28,446 nucleotides of DNA, taken from the IMG/VR virus record IMGVR_UViG_3300009603_001999, positions 1-28,446 of that record, one strand, 5' to 3'. A program made the position numbers and the translations under genes. The notes beneath the pieces are model-generated. The model saw nothing but the letters and a program-made list of their open reading frames with translations, made no database searches and had not been told where the DNA came from. Below, one piece after another: positions 8,109-20,929 of this stretch (within the stretch, counting starts at the first letter, position 1; each line of letters starts with the position of its first letter). The stretch is from a virus.

Positions 8109-8399
8109 TTACTCTACCTTATACATTTCATATTTAAGTGTTAGCTCTTGTCCTGCTTTAATATCTTCTGTCGTTTCGAGCCAGTTTCTGTTTGATGCCC
8201 TTAGTAGTGTGCAGTTTGGTGATTTGGAGTGATTTATAAATCCTCCAAGTGGCGATCTGGTTACTTCTTCCCATAGAAAATAGTGGGTGATACCTATTCT
8301 TGTTTTATTCTCTATATCTTCAGTAGCAAACAATCCAAGTCCTTCTATGCCAGACTGTTTGATAGTAAGATAATCTGGGAGTGGTTTATACTTTTTCAT
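8109..8399 (-). CDS. minimal SET-domain protein (putative lysine methyltransferase)
   Basis: Only 96 aa, but both SET hallmarks are present. GIEGLGLFATEDI (18-29) matches the N-terminal SET strand, NHSKSPNC (56-63) the SAM-pocket/pseudoknot motif (NHS-x2-PNC), and GQELTLKY (83-90) the closing motif with its Tyr. Pre-SET and post-SET parts are absent. SET proteins transfer methyl from SAM to protein lysines; bacterial and viral minimal versions are known, with few substrates established. A host or phage DNA-associated protein is a possible target. The ATG lies inside the last codons of the 87-aa gene (14-nt overlap) with little SD, so it is translationally coupled and probably made at modest level. 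Confidence 0.82.
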   Translation of the reverse strand: MKKYKPLPDYLTIKQSGIEGLGLFATEDIENKTRIGITHYFLWEEVTRSPLGGFINHSKSPNCTLLRASNRNWLETTEDIKAGQELTLKYEMYKVE

Positions 8400-9200: not shown

Positions 9201-10463
9201 TTACGGGTATGTTAATTGCATCGCATTAGATGAGAATTCAACTATACTCTCATCTGGTTCAGTGAATTTGTCGATCCTTTTGAGGACATAATCAACCACA
9301 TCATCTGAAAGGTGGAGGGTTTCCACAAACTCCGTGAATGTTATCTCCCTATCAGCCTCGGTGTATAGCTTCACCAGTTTTTTGCGGAAATCTGTGTAGA
9401 ATTCACCATCACTTTCTAGACTCCTGCCTACCTGTATCCCTGTCTTAACTATCGCCTGACAGAGATAGAGCCAGTTCTTCATCTTTCTCGGATTGTTGGT
9501 ACCAGAATGGTAGCGAAACTCTATCGAGCCGAGATAGATTCTTGCGTGCATATTCATTCCGTGATAACGAGAACTATTGTATTTATCGAGTGATGGTGAA
9601 TTTGAGCACGAATCGTACCAAGTATCTATAAAGCTTTCATTACTGTCGATACTCAGTATTGATTCTACACTCATAGGCAACGGTCTGCACCAAGTTGAAT
9701 TTAGTCTCGAGGTTGGAATCATTTTGTAGAGATATTTTTCTACCTTTTTCCCAACCAGGAGTACTCCCTTTAGTTCTTCCCATTGTAGATCTCTTGCATC
9801 AATGTGTACGTGTAGTCCACAAGAAGTATTTGGATAGCAAGAGTTCATCCTAAGGTGCAACGCTAATGAATCTATGCTTTCGTAAAGCATATCTCCATTT
9901 TGTGGTGCTTTTAATAAGAATTCTGCACCATCCTCTGGGAGGCTTCCGTCTGTGGTCATCATCCAATCTGGAGGACATCCATCTCTCACATCACCCCAAT
10001 CTGAGCCCAATATCGTTTCAACTTCTAAAGAAGCAAGTCTCTTGAATGGATTTTTATCGTATGTTTCGCTTTCCTTTATTACGAAGCTTGCTCCAGATGA
10101 ATAGGATTCAAGTGATATATTTCTATCTCTTTCTTCCCAGCAACTGTTACAGTAGTAGTAATCCTCGTCATAGCTTGCCTCCTCTCTTTCTACCTCCGCA
10201 TCACAAACATCGCAGTTAGTATATCTCTCGTAATAGCAATCCTCACAGTACACATAATCATTGCTATGTTCTGAGCGATATATCCTATTTCGAGGTAGTT
10301 CGTGATCGCAATCGCAACACATAGTAAAGAGATCTTCATAACATTGATGACAGAACGGTTCACCTTCTTCATACCGATTTGACCCGAAGATTTCAGATTC
10401 AGAGTAATGTATATCATTTCTATCGGTATTTTTATCACAATGTCTACATCTTATTTTTACCAT
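9201..10463 (-). CDS. amidoligase (GS-like COOH-NH2 ligase) with three N-terminal Zn modules
   Basis: 420 aa. Residues 1-110 carry three CxxC...CxxC modules (Cys 6/9-38/41, 49 or 50/52-73/76, 84/87-105/108). Residues about 143-340 are an amidoligase_2-type domain: LASLEVET (143-150), DGSLPEDGAEFLLKAP (172-187), SCGLHVHIDARDL (214-226), SSRYHGMNMHAR (297-308) and GSIEFRYHSGTNN (312-324). Glu/His/Arg in these motifs form the ATP/metal site of the glutamine-synthetase fold. The family makes amide bonds between a carboxylate and an amine; the substrate here is unknown. SD AGGAGG lies before the ATG. It is the last gene of an operon with the amidotransferase and a second ligase. Confidence 0.85.
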   Translation of the reverse strand: MVKIRCRHCDKNTDRNDIHYSESEIFGSNRYEEGEPFCHQCYEDLFTMCCDCDHELPRNRIYRSEHSNDYVYCEDCYYERYTNCDVCDAEVEREEASYDEDYYYCNSCWEERDRNISLESYSSGASFVIKESETYDKNPFKRLASLEVETILGSDWGDVRDGCPPDWMMTTDGSLPEDGAEFLLKAPQNGDMLYESIDSLALHLRMNSCYPNTSCGLHVHIDARDLQWEELKGVLLVGKKVEKYLYKMIPTSRLNSTWCRPLPMSVESILSIDSNESFIDTWYDSCSNSPSLDKYNSSRYHGMNMHARIYLGSIEFRYHSGTNNPRKMKNWLYLCQAIVKTGIQVGRSLESDGEFYTDFRKKLVKLYTEADREITFTEFVETLHLSDDVVDYVLKRIDKFTEPDESIVEFSSNAMQLTYP

Positions 10464-10472
10464 AATCTCCTC

Positions 10473-10766
10473 CTATGCTATTGCATTGTTTGCTGTTATC
10501 AGAGCGAATACCCAAATACTCACTTCCCTAAGCCAACCTATCTTTTTAAGGGTATCGTATATTTCATCAATCCCACCATCAACCTCTTTACCTTCAAGGA
10601 CTTTTATCTGATGTTTGAGATGTTTCAGATAATCCTCGAAACTGTCAGTATTGACAAAAGGATTCTTCTTTGCCCTCTGGTATAATCTCTCCAATACGTA
10701 CTTCTTTGACTTGATTTTTATTGGTGTTGATATACCAACGAGCATTGCTTTTCTTTTCTTTTTCAT
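10473..10766 (-). CDS. 97-aa Lys-rich protein inside the amidoligase operon
   Basis: Unrecognised. A basic start (MKKKRKAMLVG ... KIKSKKYVLERLYQRAKK), a helical middle with many Lys/Glu, and a hydrophobic C-terminus (WLREVSIWVFALITANNAIA), which could be a short membrane or interaction helix. Its ATG overlaps the amidotransferase stop (ATGA) and it ends 9 nt before the second ligase gene, so the three are co-translated. Position makes it a candidate substrate, carrier or adaptor for the ligases; that is inference, since no family is recognised. Confidence 0.6.
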   Translation of the reverse strand: MKKKRKAMLVGISTPIKIKSKKYVLERLYQRAKKNPFVNTDSFEDYLKHLKHQIKVLEGKEVDGGIDEIYDTLKKIGWLREVSIWVFALITANNAIA

Positions 10767-11983
10767 ACATTATCTCCTACATTGAATCGTTCTATTTTCT
10801 CAGGAAGGAGTAATACTTCCTGCTCATCATCGTCTTTTTCATCATATGGATCTGGATCGCAACCATCACAAATGAGTGATTCTCCGAAGTCAGTCATTTC
10901 ATTTTTATCCACCCAATCTGAGCACCAATCACATAACCTGAGATCTGGATTGTTTTTCTTATTTTGTTCAATCTCCTCAAGTTTGCACTCTTCCCAGCAG
11001 TCTCCACAAAGTGTCCAATGAAGATCGTCTACATACTTGGTATCTTTTTTACTCACCCAGCATTTGCAGTAATCACATTGGACGTGAGAATTATGGTTAT
11101 GGGTAGTTATCTGTTCTGCCCTGACATCCTCCCTGCAGTTCCAACATAGTTTGGTTTTATAGTACGTTGTAGCTCCACACTCGGTACACCTTGAGGATTC
11201 ACCTTGATAGCCAGAATATCCGTAATAAGAGCCAGAATAGTATTTGCTAACCTTTGGTTTGAACTTCTCTTTAGTGTGAATTGGCGAACTGTTAAAGTTT
11301 TCCGTTTCACATCCGTAGATTATTCCTTTTTTGAGTGAACCACATTTAAGAGTCCCCAGACCTGCATTACTCAAAGCCGTATGTAATATTAGCTCTGTGC
11401 TTGCCCAGAAGAGAATCTTAGCTTTTTTCCAGTATGCAACACATAGAGGCCTCGATGATTCCCTTGCAAGATAGACAATGCTCGGATCGTCTTTAATGAA
11501 GGTAATCGCATAGTCGCCATCTATCTTTTCAAGAGCATTTTTGATTTTGTTCCTGTTTATTGCACCAAAGATGGCTTCGGAGTCAACTTCTATTGTTTTG
11601 TTCATCTTTCTAGCGAGTTCATTATGGTTACTTAATACACCATTATGAGCTCCGACAACTTTGCCTATGGCAAATGGATGAGCATTTCTAATAGATATTG
11701 TTCCGTGTGTAGCGAGCCTTACGTGTCCTAGAACTGCAGTTGTAGAGCGATTCAGTTCGGGAATTATTTTTTCTTCCCAATCTTCGTGCTCAATCATATC
11801 AAAGGAGGGCATAACAGTTTTAAATATTGACCTTGACTCTTTCGAGATGAAGGCTATACCTGTACTGTCTGTTCCTCTTACTGATGATTCATCTGCAAGA
11901 TACTGGAGTACCAGTCTTGATTGCTCAATCTGGAAGTTGTTTTGTGAGTCAGCCTTTTTTGCTAACCCGAATACTCCACACAT
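10763..11983 (-). CDS. class-II glutamine amidotransferase with three C-terminal Zn modules
   Basis: 406 aa. The N-terminal Ntn-hydrolase domain (about 2-225) has the catalytic Cys2 exposed after Met removal (MCGVFG), RGTDSTG (36-42), GHVRLATHG (86-94), NAHPF (100-104), GAHNGVLSNHNEL (111-123) and DGDYAI (155-160), all typical of GATase II. It should hydrolyse glutamine to glutamate and pass ammonia to a partner. No synthetase or isomerase domain is fused; instead the tail has three CxxC...CxxC modules (266/269-280/283, 303/306-326/329, 351/354-372/375) and an acidic end. AAGGA lies 7 nt before the ATG. It is placed between the two ligases, the obvious ammonia acceptors. Confidence 0.9.
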   Translation of the reverse strand: MCGVFGLAKKADSQNNFQIEQSRLVLQYLADESSVRGTDSTGIAFISKESRSIFKTVMPSFDMIEHEDWEEKIIPELNRSTTAVLGHVRLATHGTISIRNAHPFAIGKVVGAHNGVLSNHNELARKMNKTIEVDSEAIFGAINRNKIKNALEKIDGDYAITFIKDDPSIVYLARESSRPLCVAYWKKAKILFWASTELILHTALSNAGLGTLKCGSLKKGIIYGCETENFNSSPIHTKEKFKPKVSKYYSGSYYGYSGYQGESSRCTECGATTYYKTKLCWNCREDVRAEQITTHNHNSHVQCDYCKCWVSKKDTKYVDDLHWTLCGDCWEECKLEEIEQNKKNNPDLRLCDWCSDWVDKNEMTDFGESLICDGCDPDPYDEKDDDEQEVLLLPEKIERFNVGDNV

Positions 11984-12001
11984 AGTTTGTTCCTTTCTTT
12001 T

Positions 12002-13879
12002 TTATTGATTAAAGTAATCTCTTACTTCGTCTTTATTGTGTTGTTCCTTGTATGCTTCCTTCTCATCTGAGAAGAATCCATATAAGTTTTCTTCTCCAAT
12101 CATTTGGAGATAATCTTCAAGACCAATTCCGACGTAGCCTGAATCTTTAAATTCTTTATTTAATTCTTTTTTGGAGCTATGTACAACTGCGAGGCAAAAC
12201 TTAAGCCAACTCATTATAAATCTGGAAGTTGTTCTCGTGGGAAAGTATCTGAACTCAATAGTACCGTGGAGGAATCTGGAATGGAGATTTAAACCACGGT
12301 ATCTTGAATCATTATATTTGTCTGTTGTCATCTCTACATCACTTAATGTCATATACCAAAGCTCTGCAAAGTCTTTCATATCATTTATTCTGAGAATACT
12401 CTCTGTCCAATGATTCATATGTCTTGGCAGGGGAGCTGAATATTTCCTTTTAAATCTTATGATTGGAAGAGATAAATACATATATTCTTCCATTTTTAAC
12501 ATTATGAGCAATATTCTCCTTAGTTCTTTATGTCTTAAAAGTCTTGCATCTATATGAAAATGAATACCACAGGAGGAATCTCCCCACATATACTTATTAT
12601 CAATATAATTTAATATTTTATTAAGAGATTTAAACATATTATCTCCATTTAGCGGACCGTGAGATCTTAATTCTATCCCAAGATGTTCATCGCTTAGAGA
12701 AGCATCACTGCCACAAACCCAACCTTCTGGGAGTCCGTACAGATCTCCTTCGCTTTCATCATATTCGTCAGCATCTCTGAGAAGTTCTATTTCTACTCCA
12801 ATGTGTTCTTGGTATTTTATTTCATTATAGGTTTCAGATGCTCTAAATACAGATGGAGGATATACCCTCACAGGATTTGATGCTATCCTTGAAATTAAAT
12901 TTTTGGAGCATTTTTCACATCTCCTTTCACTATCTATATACATAGATTTGAGGAAGTCTTTTTTAAGTTCTCGCCCTAGCTCCACCATACTATAATTTCT
13001 AAAAGCATCCTGTGTTTTGGAGAATCTTTCTTTCCACATTTCACAACTTCCACAGTAGAAATATAATCTCTCTACACAACCATCACAGAATAAATCTTTT
13101 GCATCTGGTATTTTCTCAAATGATCCACAAAAGTAGTTACTATATCCCCACAAATTGTTTACTTCAGAGCATTTTGTACACTCAAAGTGCATATTTTGTA
13201 AACATCCATTACATATAAAATTTGATGGATAGAGATGCCTTCTGCCAAAGTACCTTCCCATAGTTTCTGGAGCAATTCTCATACATATCTTGCACGGAAT
13301 ATCACTTTCATCAAAAATTTCTCCTCTCGCTAGAATGTATTTTAATTGCTCCATTTTATAGTGTGTATTTCTTATGGCTAAGTGACAGTTTCTAATATAC
13401 TTCTTTCTGTTCCTTACTGGAGATCTCATTTCACTACTATTATATCTTGTTTGATTTAATATATACATAGTTACTCTATCAGAATTTTGATAATTTCTGG
13501 TAACTCCCAAATATGGATATATTGGAGGATCATCCTTATACGAATCACCATCACGAGATGATGCAAATCTCAATGGAACCCTTACTTTACTGAGAATTGA
13601 CCTCATATATTCTTGGTACTCAAATTCATCTCCCTCATTACCTAGCCTTCTCTTTCCTTTGAATACATTTTTCGCAGTTGGGAGGAAAAGTAGATAATGG
13701 AAGTGAAACCAACTAGAAGTTTTATGATTTACTAATTCTCCATCTTCCACAGTTACCATTCTGTGAGAAAGTCTAAAGTATGGATAATCCTCTTCTATCA
13801 ACTTACCAACTTCGTTTACGACTCCTCCCTCGTTAAAGGCTTTTAGTATAAGAAAAGAGTCATTTTTCTTAAATGTCAT
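12002..13879 (-). CDS. large amidoligase with internal Zn modules (paralogue)
   Basis: 625 aa. Residues 1-180 form an unrecognised domain rich in Arg/Tyr/Phe. Residues 196-324 hold three CxxC...CxxC modules (196/199-223/226, 234/237-265/268, 276/279-321/324). Residues about 358-570 are an amidoligase domain paralogous to the 420-aa protein: HIGVEIEL (359-366), SDASL...GIELRSHGPL (391-410), SSCGIHFHIDARLL (435-448), KYNDSRYRGLNLHSR (521-535) and GTIEFRYFPTRT (539-550). The usual HSGT after EFRY is FPTR here, so activity or specificity may differ. AAGGAG precedes the ATG. It is the first gene of the amide-chemistry operon. Confidence 0.82.
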   Translation of the reverse strand: MTFKKNDSFLILKAFNEGGVVNEVGKLIEEDYPYFRLSHRMVTVEDGELVNHKTSSWFHFHYLLFLPTAKNVFKGKRRLGNEGDEFEYQEYMRSILSKVRVPLRFASSRDGDSYKDDPPIYPYLGVTRNYQNSDRVTMYILNQTRYNSSEMRSPVRNRKKYIRNCHLAIRNTHYKMEQLKYILARGEIFDESDIPCKICMRIAPETMGRYFGRRHLYPSNFICNGCLQNMHFECTKCSEVNNLWGYSNYFCGSFEKIPDAKDLFCDGCVERLYFYCGSCEMWKERFSKTQDAFRNYSMVELGRELKKDFLKSMYIDSERRCEKCSKNLISRIASNPVRVYPPSVFRASETYNEIKYQEHIGVEIELLRDADEYDESEGDLYGLPEGWVCGSDASLSDEHLGIELRSHGPLNGDNMFKSLNKILNYIDNKYMWGDSSCGIHFHIDARLLRHKELRRILLIMLKMEEYMYLSLPIIRFKRKYSAPLPRHMNHWTESILRINDMKDFAELWYMTLSDVEMTTDKYNDSRYRGLNLHSRFLHGTIEFRYFPTRTTSRFIMSWLKFCLAVVHSSKKELNKEFKDSGYVGIGLEDYLQMIGEENLYGFFSDEKEAYKEQHNKDEVRDYFNQ

Positions 13880-14577: not shown

Positions 14578-15138
14578 TTACTCCTTTTCTTTCCATTGTT
14601 TACATTGTAAAACATTAAACCCATTATTTCTCCACATATCCACTACTCTTTGCCTGTCGTCTACAATCCATTCTATTCTATCAGCAATACCATTCTCTAT
14701 CATTCTTTTCTTCAGTATTTCATCTTTCTCGTAATTAGTTCTGTATCTCATATAAAGTCTATTGTAAGGCACACTATTCTCTTCAAGCCACAATATAGTT
14801 TCGTGCATTGTGCTCCCATTCCTTCCAGATAGTATGTAAATATTATCTCTTTCAAGCATTCTCATCAAATCTATAATCCACTCTATAGGTTTATCGTACA
14901 TACATTCCTCGAAAAATCTCTTGTAGTCCTTTTTACCTGTTTCGTAGGGTTTTTTTATGAATTTTACTCTGTGTTCCATATCTGCTATCGTACCATCGAG
15001 GTCAAAAACATATATTTTCTCTGGGTGTTCATCTAATCTCAATCCACGACGAGTGTAAAATTTATCTCCCATATGTATACCATTTTCATATACTGTGAAT
15101 TTTTTATGTCCATTTTTACTCTTGACTGTTTTATGCAT
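14578..15138 (-). CDS. HAD-superfamily phosphatase resembling T4 Pnkp 3'-phosphatase domain
   Basis: 186 aa. HAD motif I is DLDGT (46-50, catalytic Asp46 and Asp48), motif II lies in LSGRNGST (103-110), and motif III/IV is VDDRQRVVDMWR (159-170), very like the T4 polynucleotide kinase phosphatase segment 'IDDRTQVVEMWRR'. Residues 1-42 are a small beta-rich extension. The T4 domain removes 3'-phosphates from RNA or DNA ends so that they can be ligated; no kinase domain and no ligase are visible here. A role in end repair or nucleotide metabolism is likely. GAGGAG precedes the ATG. Confidence 0.8.
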   Translation of the reverse strand: MHKTVKSKNGHKKFTVYENGIHMGDKFYTRRGLRLDEHPEKIYVFDLDGTIADMEHRVKFIKKPYETGKKDYKRFFEECMYDKPIEWIIDLMRMLERDNIYILSGRNGSTMHETILWLEENSVPYNRLYMRYRTNYEKDEILKKRMIENGIADRIEWIVDDRQRVVDMWRNNGFNVLQCKQWKEKE

Positions 15139-20404: not shown

Positions 20405-20573
20405 AGATTGTGATGTTTGCGGGTATCCGTTATATGACAATTCAATCCCAGTAACAGAGATAACAATAAAAATGAGCAATCTTCACGTACAGTGCACAAA
20501 CTGTTTAAGTATATATGACCACTCACTTGAGTTAAAACACATTGGAATTACTAAAAATGCAGGTTTAGCGTAA
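20343..20573 (+). CDS. small four-Cys Zn-ribbon protein
   Basis: Up to 76 aa, with CDVCGYPLY and CTNCLSIY giving a CxxC...CxxC zinc ribbon about 27 residues apart. The start is uncertain: GTG at 20343, TTG at 20373 (10 nt after AGAGG) or TTG at 20394; the earliest two lie inside the TerS gene. Its stop overlaps the next gene (TAATG). It may aid TerS/TerL or the downstream cyclotransferase; no family recognised. Confidence 0.55.
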   Translation: MLLKVKRLKNLRKLAERLKDRDCDVCGYPLYDNSIPVTEITIKMSNLHVQCTNCLSIYDHSLELKHIGITKNAGLA

Positions 20574-20929
20574 TGAAGAAGAATATTGCAGTATACGGCA
20601 CGTTAAGAGATTTTAAGACTAAGAAGGGTGAAGTTCACGGTTATACACTTGTTTACCCTGCTATGACTAAAGCATTCCCTGCAGCTATCAGAGATGAGAA
20701 GGATAAGATAGTTGTAGAGGTAAAAACGATAGAAGACTACGAAATTGGTGGTTATGACGAGTATGAAAACGTAAAAGGCGGATTATATAAGAGAGATACA
20801 GTAAATGTGAAGATGCCTGACGGTGAAATAATAGAAGCATGGATGTATACTGCTGGTCCAGTCATACTGCAGAACGACGGTGTCTACGAAAAGATTCCAG
20901 ATAACGATTGGGAGAACGTGGCTTATTAA
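20573..20929 (+). CDS. gamma-glutamylcyclotransferase (GGCT/AIG2-like)
   Basis: 118 aa, the full size of the fold. The substrate-binding VYGTLR loop is at 7-12. 'YEIGGYDEYENVKGGLYKRD' (56-75) matches the family's L-D-x-h-E segment, where Glu64 is the probable catalytic acid/base. The family releases 5-oxoproline from gamma-glutamyl amines. In a phage with amidoligases and a glutamine amidotransferase it would suit removal or editing of a gamma-glutamyl amide, although it is on the other strand. Coupled to the Zn-ribbon gene by TAATG; its last 50 nt overlap TerL. Confidence 0.82.
   Translation: MKKNIAVYGTLRDFKTKKGEVHGYTLVYPAMTKAFPAAIRDEKDKIVVEVKTIEDYEIGGYDEYENVKGGLYKRDTVNVKMPDGEIIEAWMYTAGPVILQNDGVYEKIPDNDWENVAY

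Follow-up and report, generated by a model that had tools for sequence, protein, structure and literature searches.

We identified a predicted glutamine-dependent enzyme module in a 28,446-base virus record from IMG/VR (IMGVR_UViG_3300009603_001999; the whole record is hereafter the window). A run of four genes on the minus strand (13879-9201) encodes, in transcription order, the ligase LigA, a class II glutamine amidotransferase (GATase), a small protein (s97) and a second ligase, LigB (Table 1). The four genes probably constitute one ATP-driven system that uses glutamine to amidate a carboxylate or to ligate a carboxylate to an amine, and the GATase-s97-LigB order, usually with LigA upstream, is kept under purifying selection. 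The arrangement of ligase, class II GATase, 97-residue protein and ligase had been described in an earlier note on this DNA, and was confirmed by the open reading frames and by the relatives. The gaps, given there as 0-18 nt, are nearly as described: +18 nt between LigA and GATase and +9 nt between s97 and LigB, but the GATase and s97 genes overlap (ATGA, -4 nt). A GGA-rich Shine-Dalgarno-like site lies ahead of each of the four start codons.

Catalytic domains of the module proteins

LigA and LigB are both assigned by sequence to the Amidoligase_2 (PF12224) group of glutamine synthetase (GS)-like COOH-NH2 ligases, with matches of 85 bits (9.4e-24) and 75.9 bits (5.7e-21), respectively, as compared to a Pfam cut-off of 22 bits. 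The ExE, DxS, CGxHxH, NxHxR and ExR motifs are invariant in 41 LigB and 32 LigA sequences. A structure model of LigB, with a mean predicted local distance difference test score (pLDDT) of 88.8, has YbdK as its top fold match (E 3.6e-5, probability 1.00), followed by glutamine synthetases and gamma-glutamylcysteine synthetase, with PafA as a weak match. YbdK belongs to the carboxylate-amine ligases of glutamate-cysteine type. The earlier description of the ligases as GS-fold COOH-NH2 ligases is supported by the PF12224 match of both and, for LigB, by the model, which predicts a GS-like fold. The N-terminus of LigB matches LIM domains, and the Cys pairs of the LigA zinc-knuckle module are invariant or more than 90% conserved in 32 relatives. 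LigA forms one supported group in the tree (96/91), and LigB forms another (96/84) together with a single-ligase form found in sister phages. The two ligases likely arose by an old duplication, the exact place of which is unsure because the tree has several long branches.

GATase matches PF13522 at 4.1e-14, the Pfam families matched being GATase_6, GATase_7 and GATase_4, and the closest solved relatives of its profile in PDB are the glutaminase domains of GlmS and PurF. Among 43 sequences, Cys2, Arg36-Gly37, Ser40-Thr41-Gly42, His87, Arg89, Thr92, His113-Asn114-Gly115 and Asp134 are invariant, and the RGxxSTG, HxRxxT and HNG motifs are intact in the window protein, in agreement with the full N-terminal nucleophile (Ntn) site reported for it. 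On this N-terminal Cys/Arg/Thr/HNG/Asp signature, GATase is classified as a class II (Ntn) glutamine amidotransferase. It lacks a fused acceptor (synthase) domain, as had been noted, and its C-terminal half is a zinc-knuckle region. Zinc knuckles, the zinc modules of the earlier description, occur in all three enzymes of the module. A fused acceptor domain marks GlmS, PurF and AsnB but is no defining feature of the glutaminase family at large. PHROGs also assigns module proteins to amidoligase and class II amidotransferase families.

A single amidating or ligating system is supported by these family matches, in which the active sites of the Ntn glutaminase and of both GS-type ligases are intact, by the nearest solved folds of LigB (YbdK, GS, gamma-glutamylcysteine synthetase and PafA), and by the direct adjacency to the ligases of a GATase that has no acceptor domain of its own.

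Conservation and co-inheritance of the module

Searches of IMG/VR with neighborhood analysis, in which loci were grouped by shared identical proteins, yielded 43 groups. The order LigA-GATase-s97-LigB is found in 34 of these and GATase-s97-LigB only in the other nine. A second, unbiased scan seeded with s97 alone returned 77 viral loci. GATase lies directly upstream of s97 in all loci not cut by a contig end (75/75), LigB lies directly downstream in all uncut loci (74/74), and LigA is present in 56 of the 77. The median pairwise ratio of non-synonymous to synonymous substitution rates (dN/dS) is ~0.17-0.29 across all four genes, with LigA represented by one pair and LigB by five. Because the order is kept in dozens of divergent viral contigs with low dN/dS, it is beyond chance. 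Distance matrices computed for each of the four proteins are correlated with one another (r 0.76-0.92), indicating that the proteins travel together. That the unbiased scan always returns the module and that the four matrices correlate both support the single-system reading. The earlier note had named, as outcomes that would refute it, the lack of an amidoligase match for both ligases or of a conserved gene order in any related phage; both ligases match PF12224 and the order is conserved, so neither outcome occurred. Its observation is confirmed and its interpretation partly supported.

There were no s97 matches in 50,697 annotated phage records (E 0.01), and the best terminase matches listed in the search for cultured relatives were only ~25-28% identical. 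The module carriers are a widespread but uncultured phage group.

The small protein s97

The s97 family, restricted to the module, was not recognized as such in the earlier note and is new in the libraries searched: no family match beyond noise was found in Pfam, PHROGs, NCBIfam or PDB, and its structure model (pLDDT 75) has no fold relatives among solved proteins with E below 1. G11, N35-P36-F37, L73 and W78 are invariant (n = 43), and K19, S20, K21, Y46, Y70 and K74 are nearly so. The window protein is Lys-rich, as described previously (16 K/97, isoelectric point 9.8), but the family as a whole varies in this, with K at 7-18% and isoelectric points of 5.1-10.0. HEPN, ParD and DUF5312 were rejected as relatives, their matches being weak or in few members only. 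Homology to the ~180-aa protein of LUZ24-like gene sets (hhalign prob 0.1) and to the C-terminal extension of the single-ligase form (hhalign prob 0.5) was likewise rejected. Fusions of s97 to a neighbor were not found, the longest matching open reading frame (167 aa) being an upstream-extended start.

In the proposed system, s97 would serve as an obligate small subunit through which GATase docks to LigB. GatC, a subunit of the glutamine amidotransferase GatCAB, is of similarly small size, so that s97 would be GatC-like in role, not homology; the likeness is an analogy only, and s97 differs from both GatC and Pup/PafA in having no sequence or fold relation to solved proteins. The module also differs from GatCAB and Pup/PafA in that its GATase is Ntn class II.

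It is conceivable, though unlikely, that s97 is itself the substrate. It would then be a carrier or tag of ribosomal origin, and LigB (and LigA) would amidate or ligate its C-terminal carboxylate in the manner of the Pup/PafA system, in which the GS-fold ligase PafA acts on a small protein (PMC3511204). Such a role would suit a protein that always adjoins LigB and is better conserved than the other three (median pairwise distance 0.50, lowest dN/dS 0.17). The extreme C-terminus of s97 (I90, N93, G/A95, I96) lies in the tail, the lowest-pLDDT part of the model; it is better conserved than the hydrophobic stretch preceding it, and its last residue is always a small one. PafA is among the LigB fold matches, but only as a weak one. 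No C-terminal residue of s97 is invariant, its tail is hydrophobic, unlike that of Pup, and a ligase and GATase pair occurs without s97 in sister phages and Omnitrophota contigs. A fuller version is less probable still: LigB (and LigA) would activate the C-terminus of s97, a new small carrier, which would be amidated or linked to protein lysines, while the zinc knuckles would recognize targets and a GGACT-type cyclotransferase would reverse the link. If this were true, the tagging of host or phage proteins with s97 would amount to a conjugation system with no relation to the ubiquitin and Pup carriers.

Related gene sets

Among 24 long records of the terminase clade of the window, s97 is present in 12, of which 11 have two amidoligases and one is cut at the contig end. 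Six others encode a single zinc-knuckle amidoligase (~585 aa) and no s97, and in six no amidoligase was found in the available stretch. In both single-ligase loci read (L365, L366), a class II GATase lies directly upstream. In a sister subclade (G047, G060; for G051, G052, G054 and G057, the amidoligase only), the locus lies beside the same exonuclease gene as the module and its zinc-knuckle PF12224 ligase aligns with LigB over most of its length (prob 100), but one ligase of 585-590 aa with a long C-terminal extension replaces s97 and LigB. Omnitrophota contigs resemble the module in having a zinc-knuckle PF12224 ligase that adjoins a class II GATase; unlike the module, their two-gene unit has the ligase first, one ligase per unit and no s97. 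Some of these units are near RadC-like and VirB4-like genes (names judged from sequence). The Omnitrophota loci (L215-L222) include one single-cell genome, and one metagenome-assembled genome has three amidoligase copies. The recurrence of a zinc-amidoligase and GATase two-gene core in sister phages and Omnitrophota contigs is a further argument for a single enzyme system.

PF12224 amidoligase/GATase sets of LUZ24-like, Zobellviridae and other phages are described in passages of PMC3890496. Those that we compared (UFV-P2, O4, PQ867850, QDWS535, MW202615) encode a PF12224 and a PF14395-type ligase, a GATase, an ATP-grasp enzyme and often GGCT. They share with the module a phage-borne PF12224 amidoligase, a class II GATase and a second GS-like ligase. 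They differ in the PF14395 type of the second ligase, in the presence of the ATP-grasp enzyme and in the small protein between the ligases, which is ~180-200 aa and unrelated to s97; no s97 family match was found in these sets. Conversely, profiles from five phages with LUZ24-like sets found the PF14395-type ligase and ATP-grasp in no s97 module locus. The association of amidoligase, class II amidotransferase and cyclotransferase, which the earlier note gave as known from comparative genomics, is an already known phage context, and so are two-ligase sets. Its suggestion that the two-ligase version with zinc modules is undescribed therefore holds for the duplicated zinc-knuckle form but not for two-ligase sets as such. 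What is new is the pair of duplicated zinc-knuckle PF12224 ligases, with no ATP-grasp or PF14395 protein, together with the s97 family.

Passages of PMC10945688 propose a nitrogen-metabolism role for the amidoligase/GATase/GGCT set of Phage-ZRK32. The module might similarly make a soluble gamma-glutamyl compound or amide or, as a set of auxiliary metabolic genes, supply nitrogen metabolism, with no protein target. YbdK as nearest solved fold and the cyclotransferase that accompanies the module are consistent with this, but three of the proteins have LIM-like zinc knuckles, a feature typical of proteins that dock with others and uncommon in metabolite synthetases, and biosynthetic or transport genes were not recognized beside the module in the window. 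We consider this alternative rather unlikely, although it is the strongest of those weighed here.

A cell-wall change against superinfection is suggested for the phiEco32 amidoligase/GATase (cited in passages of PMC10580990 and PMC11318856), and MurT/GatD are known to amidate glutamate in peptidoglycan (PMC3267633). That the module alters host peptidoglycan or other carboxylates and so excludes superinfecting phages is improbable; a cell-wall gene was not recognized in it, and its genes sit among replication genes. Class II GATases such as that of the module are, moreover, unrelated to GatD.

Genomic setting

The module lies in a shared, collinear block of early type with genes for a DnaB helicase, an N6/N4 methyltransferase, a RusA-like protein and an exonuclease (Pfam, PHROGs), and the terminase, portal and head genes are on the opposite strand (PHROGs). 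The collinearity of the operon with the DnaB, exonuclease and RusA-like genes adds to the case for one system. Counts of promoters and terminators were not above those in shuffles. A known anti-phage defense system was rejected, the five module proteins having no match to any PADLOC model.

The early block also encodes a 96-aa SET-domain protein (8109-8399, minus strand; PF00856, 1.3e-11), and a stand-alone PNKP-type HAD phosphatase (14578-15138, minus strand; PF25109, 3.2e-24) is encoded upstream of the module. Five other loci (L007, L010, L011, L014, L015) have a conserved protein of ~138-153 aa (MQTFLPYKDF...RRLGKQRVEALQI) upstream of the module, which was not noted among the module neighbors in the window.

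Table 1. Coordinates of the module genes, their domains and the cyclotransferase gene in the window
Feature	Position	Strand	Description
LigA	12002..13879	-	625 aa; variable N-terminal region, zinc-knuckle module and PF12224 GS-like ligase domain
LigA zinc-knuckle module	12890..13312	-	C196/199, 223/226, 234/237, 265/268, 276/279, 321/324
LigA ligase domain	12155..12832	-	Invariant columns: ExE 363/365, DxS 392/394, CGxHxH 437-442, R475, YNxRY 522-527, NxHxR 531-535, ExR 542/544
GATase	10763..11983	-	406 aa; stand-alone class II (Ntn) glutaminase domain and C-terminal zinc knuckles
GATase C-terminal zinc-knuckle region	10850..11194	-	C303/306 and C326/329, both invariant (n = 43), plus other Cys pairs
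s97	10473..10766	-	97 aa; new family; ATGA overlap with GATase gene
LigB	9201..10463	-	420 aa; N-terminal LIM-like zinc module and PF12224 GS-like ligase domain
LigB LIM-like zinc-knuckle module	10125..10451	-	C49/52, 73/76, 84/87, 105/108
LigB ligase domain	9447..10040	-	Invariant columns: ExE 147/149, DxS 172/174, CGxHxH 215-220, R253, W258, KY 294, RY 299, NxHxR 304-308, ExR 315/317
GGACT/gamma-glutamyl cyclotransferase-like protein	20573..20929	+	118 aa; end overlaps start of terminase large subunit gene

Proposed mechanism and targets

The module is probably made early in infection. GATase would split glutamine into glutamate and ammonia, and each ligase would activate a carboxylate with ATP as an acyl phosphate, a route suggested by the GS/YbdK fold, for attack by ammonia or another amine. 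The product would be an amide or an isopeptide, as the earlier note had proposed for a protein, cell-wall or nucleotide target. The zinc knuckles of the three enzymes may hold the complex together, recruit a protein target, or both. A host or phage protein is tentatively the leading candidate for the target, followed at some distance by a small gamma-glutamyl compound; the cell wall is a doubtful target and DNA a still more doubtful one.

A cyclotransferase, absent from the earlier note, is encoded in the window and matches PF06094 (2.2e-12, 48 bits), with the AVYGTL motif (YGxL) and the conserved Glu. An enzyme of this GGACT type probably shares the chemistry of the module as a partner, and might open or trim gamma-glutamyl-amine products. 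PF06094 is found in 38 of 44 module-bearing records, which supports the proposed system, as does the separation of LigA and LigB into two supported groups. Two records, G035 (63.9 kb) and G043 (80.3 kb), have two cyclotransferase copies and twice the number of amidoligases usual for their type, and are probably joined or chimeric assemblies.

Several observations weigh against a single four-gene system with a cyclotransferase partner. The cyclotransferase gene lies outside the operon and distant from it, and PF06094 is present in 24/24 terminase-clade records, including those in which the module was not found. It is consequently a clade gene, not specific to the s97 form; this distribution ruled out GGACT as a module-specific gene, and its link to this module in particular is weak. 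Some relatives with GATase and a ligase lack s97, and some lack LigA, which argues that neither is essential to the core chemistry. Finally, we found no biochemical data for phage PF12224 proteins in the literature, and passages of PMC3890496, PMC10580990, PMC11318856 and PMC10945688 report no experimental test of the enzymes of amidoligase sets.

Sets of amidoligase, GATase and cyclotransferase occur commonly among phages, with functions that the passages cited propose but do not demonstrate. In the module this problem comes down to three or four adjacent, jointly inherited proteins, among them a private small protein, in which the catalytic residues are clear. They allow a defined complex to be expressed and assayed for its amidation target. 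If the target is a protein, this would represent a new modification of host machinery made by phages.

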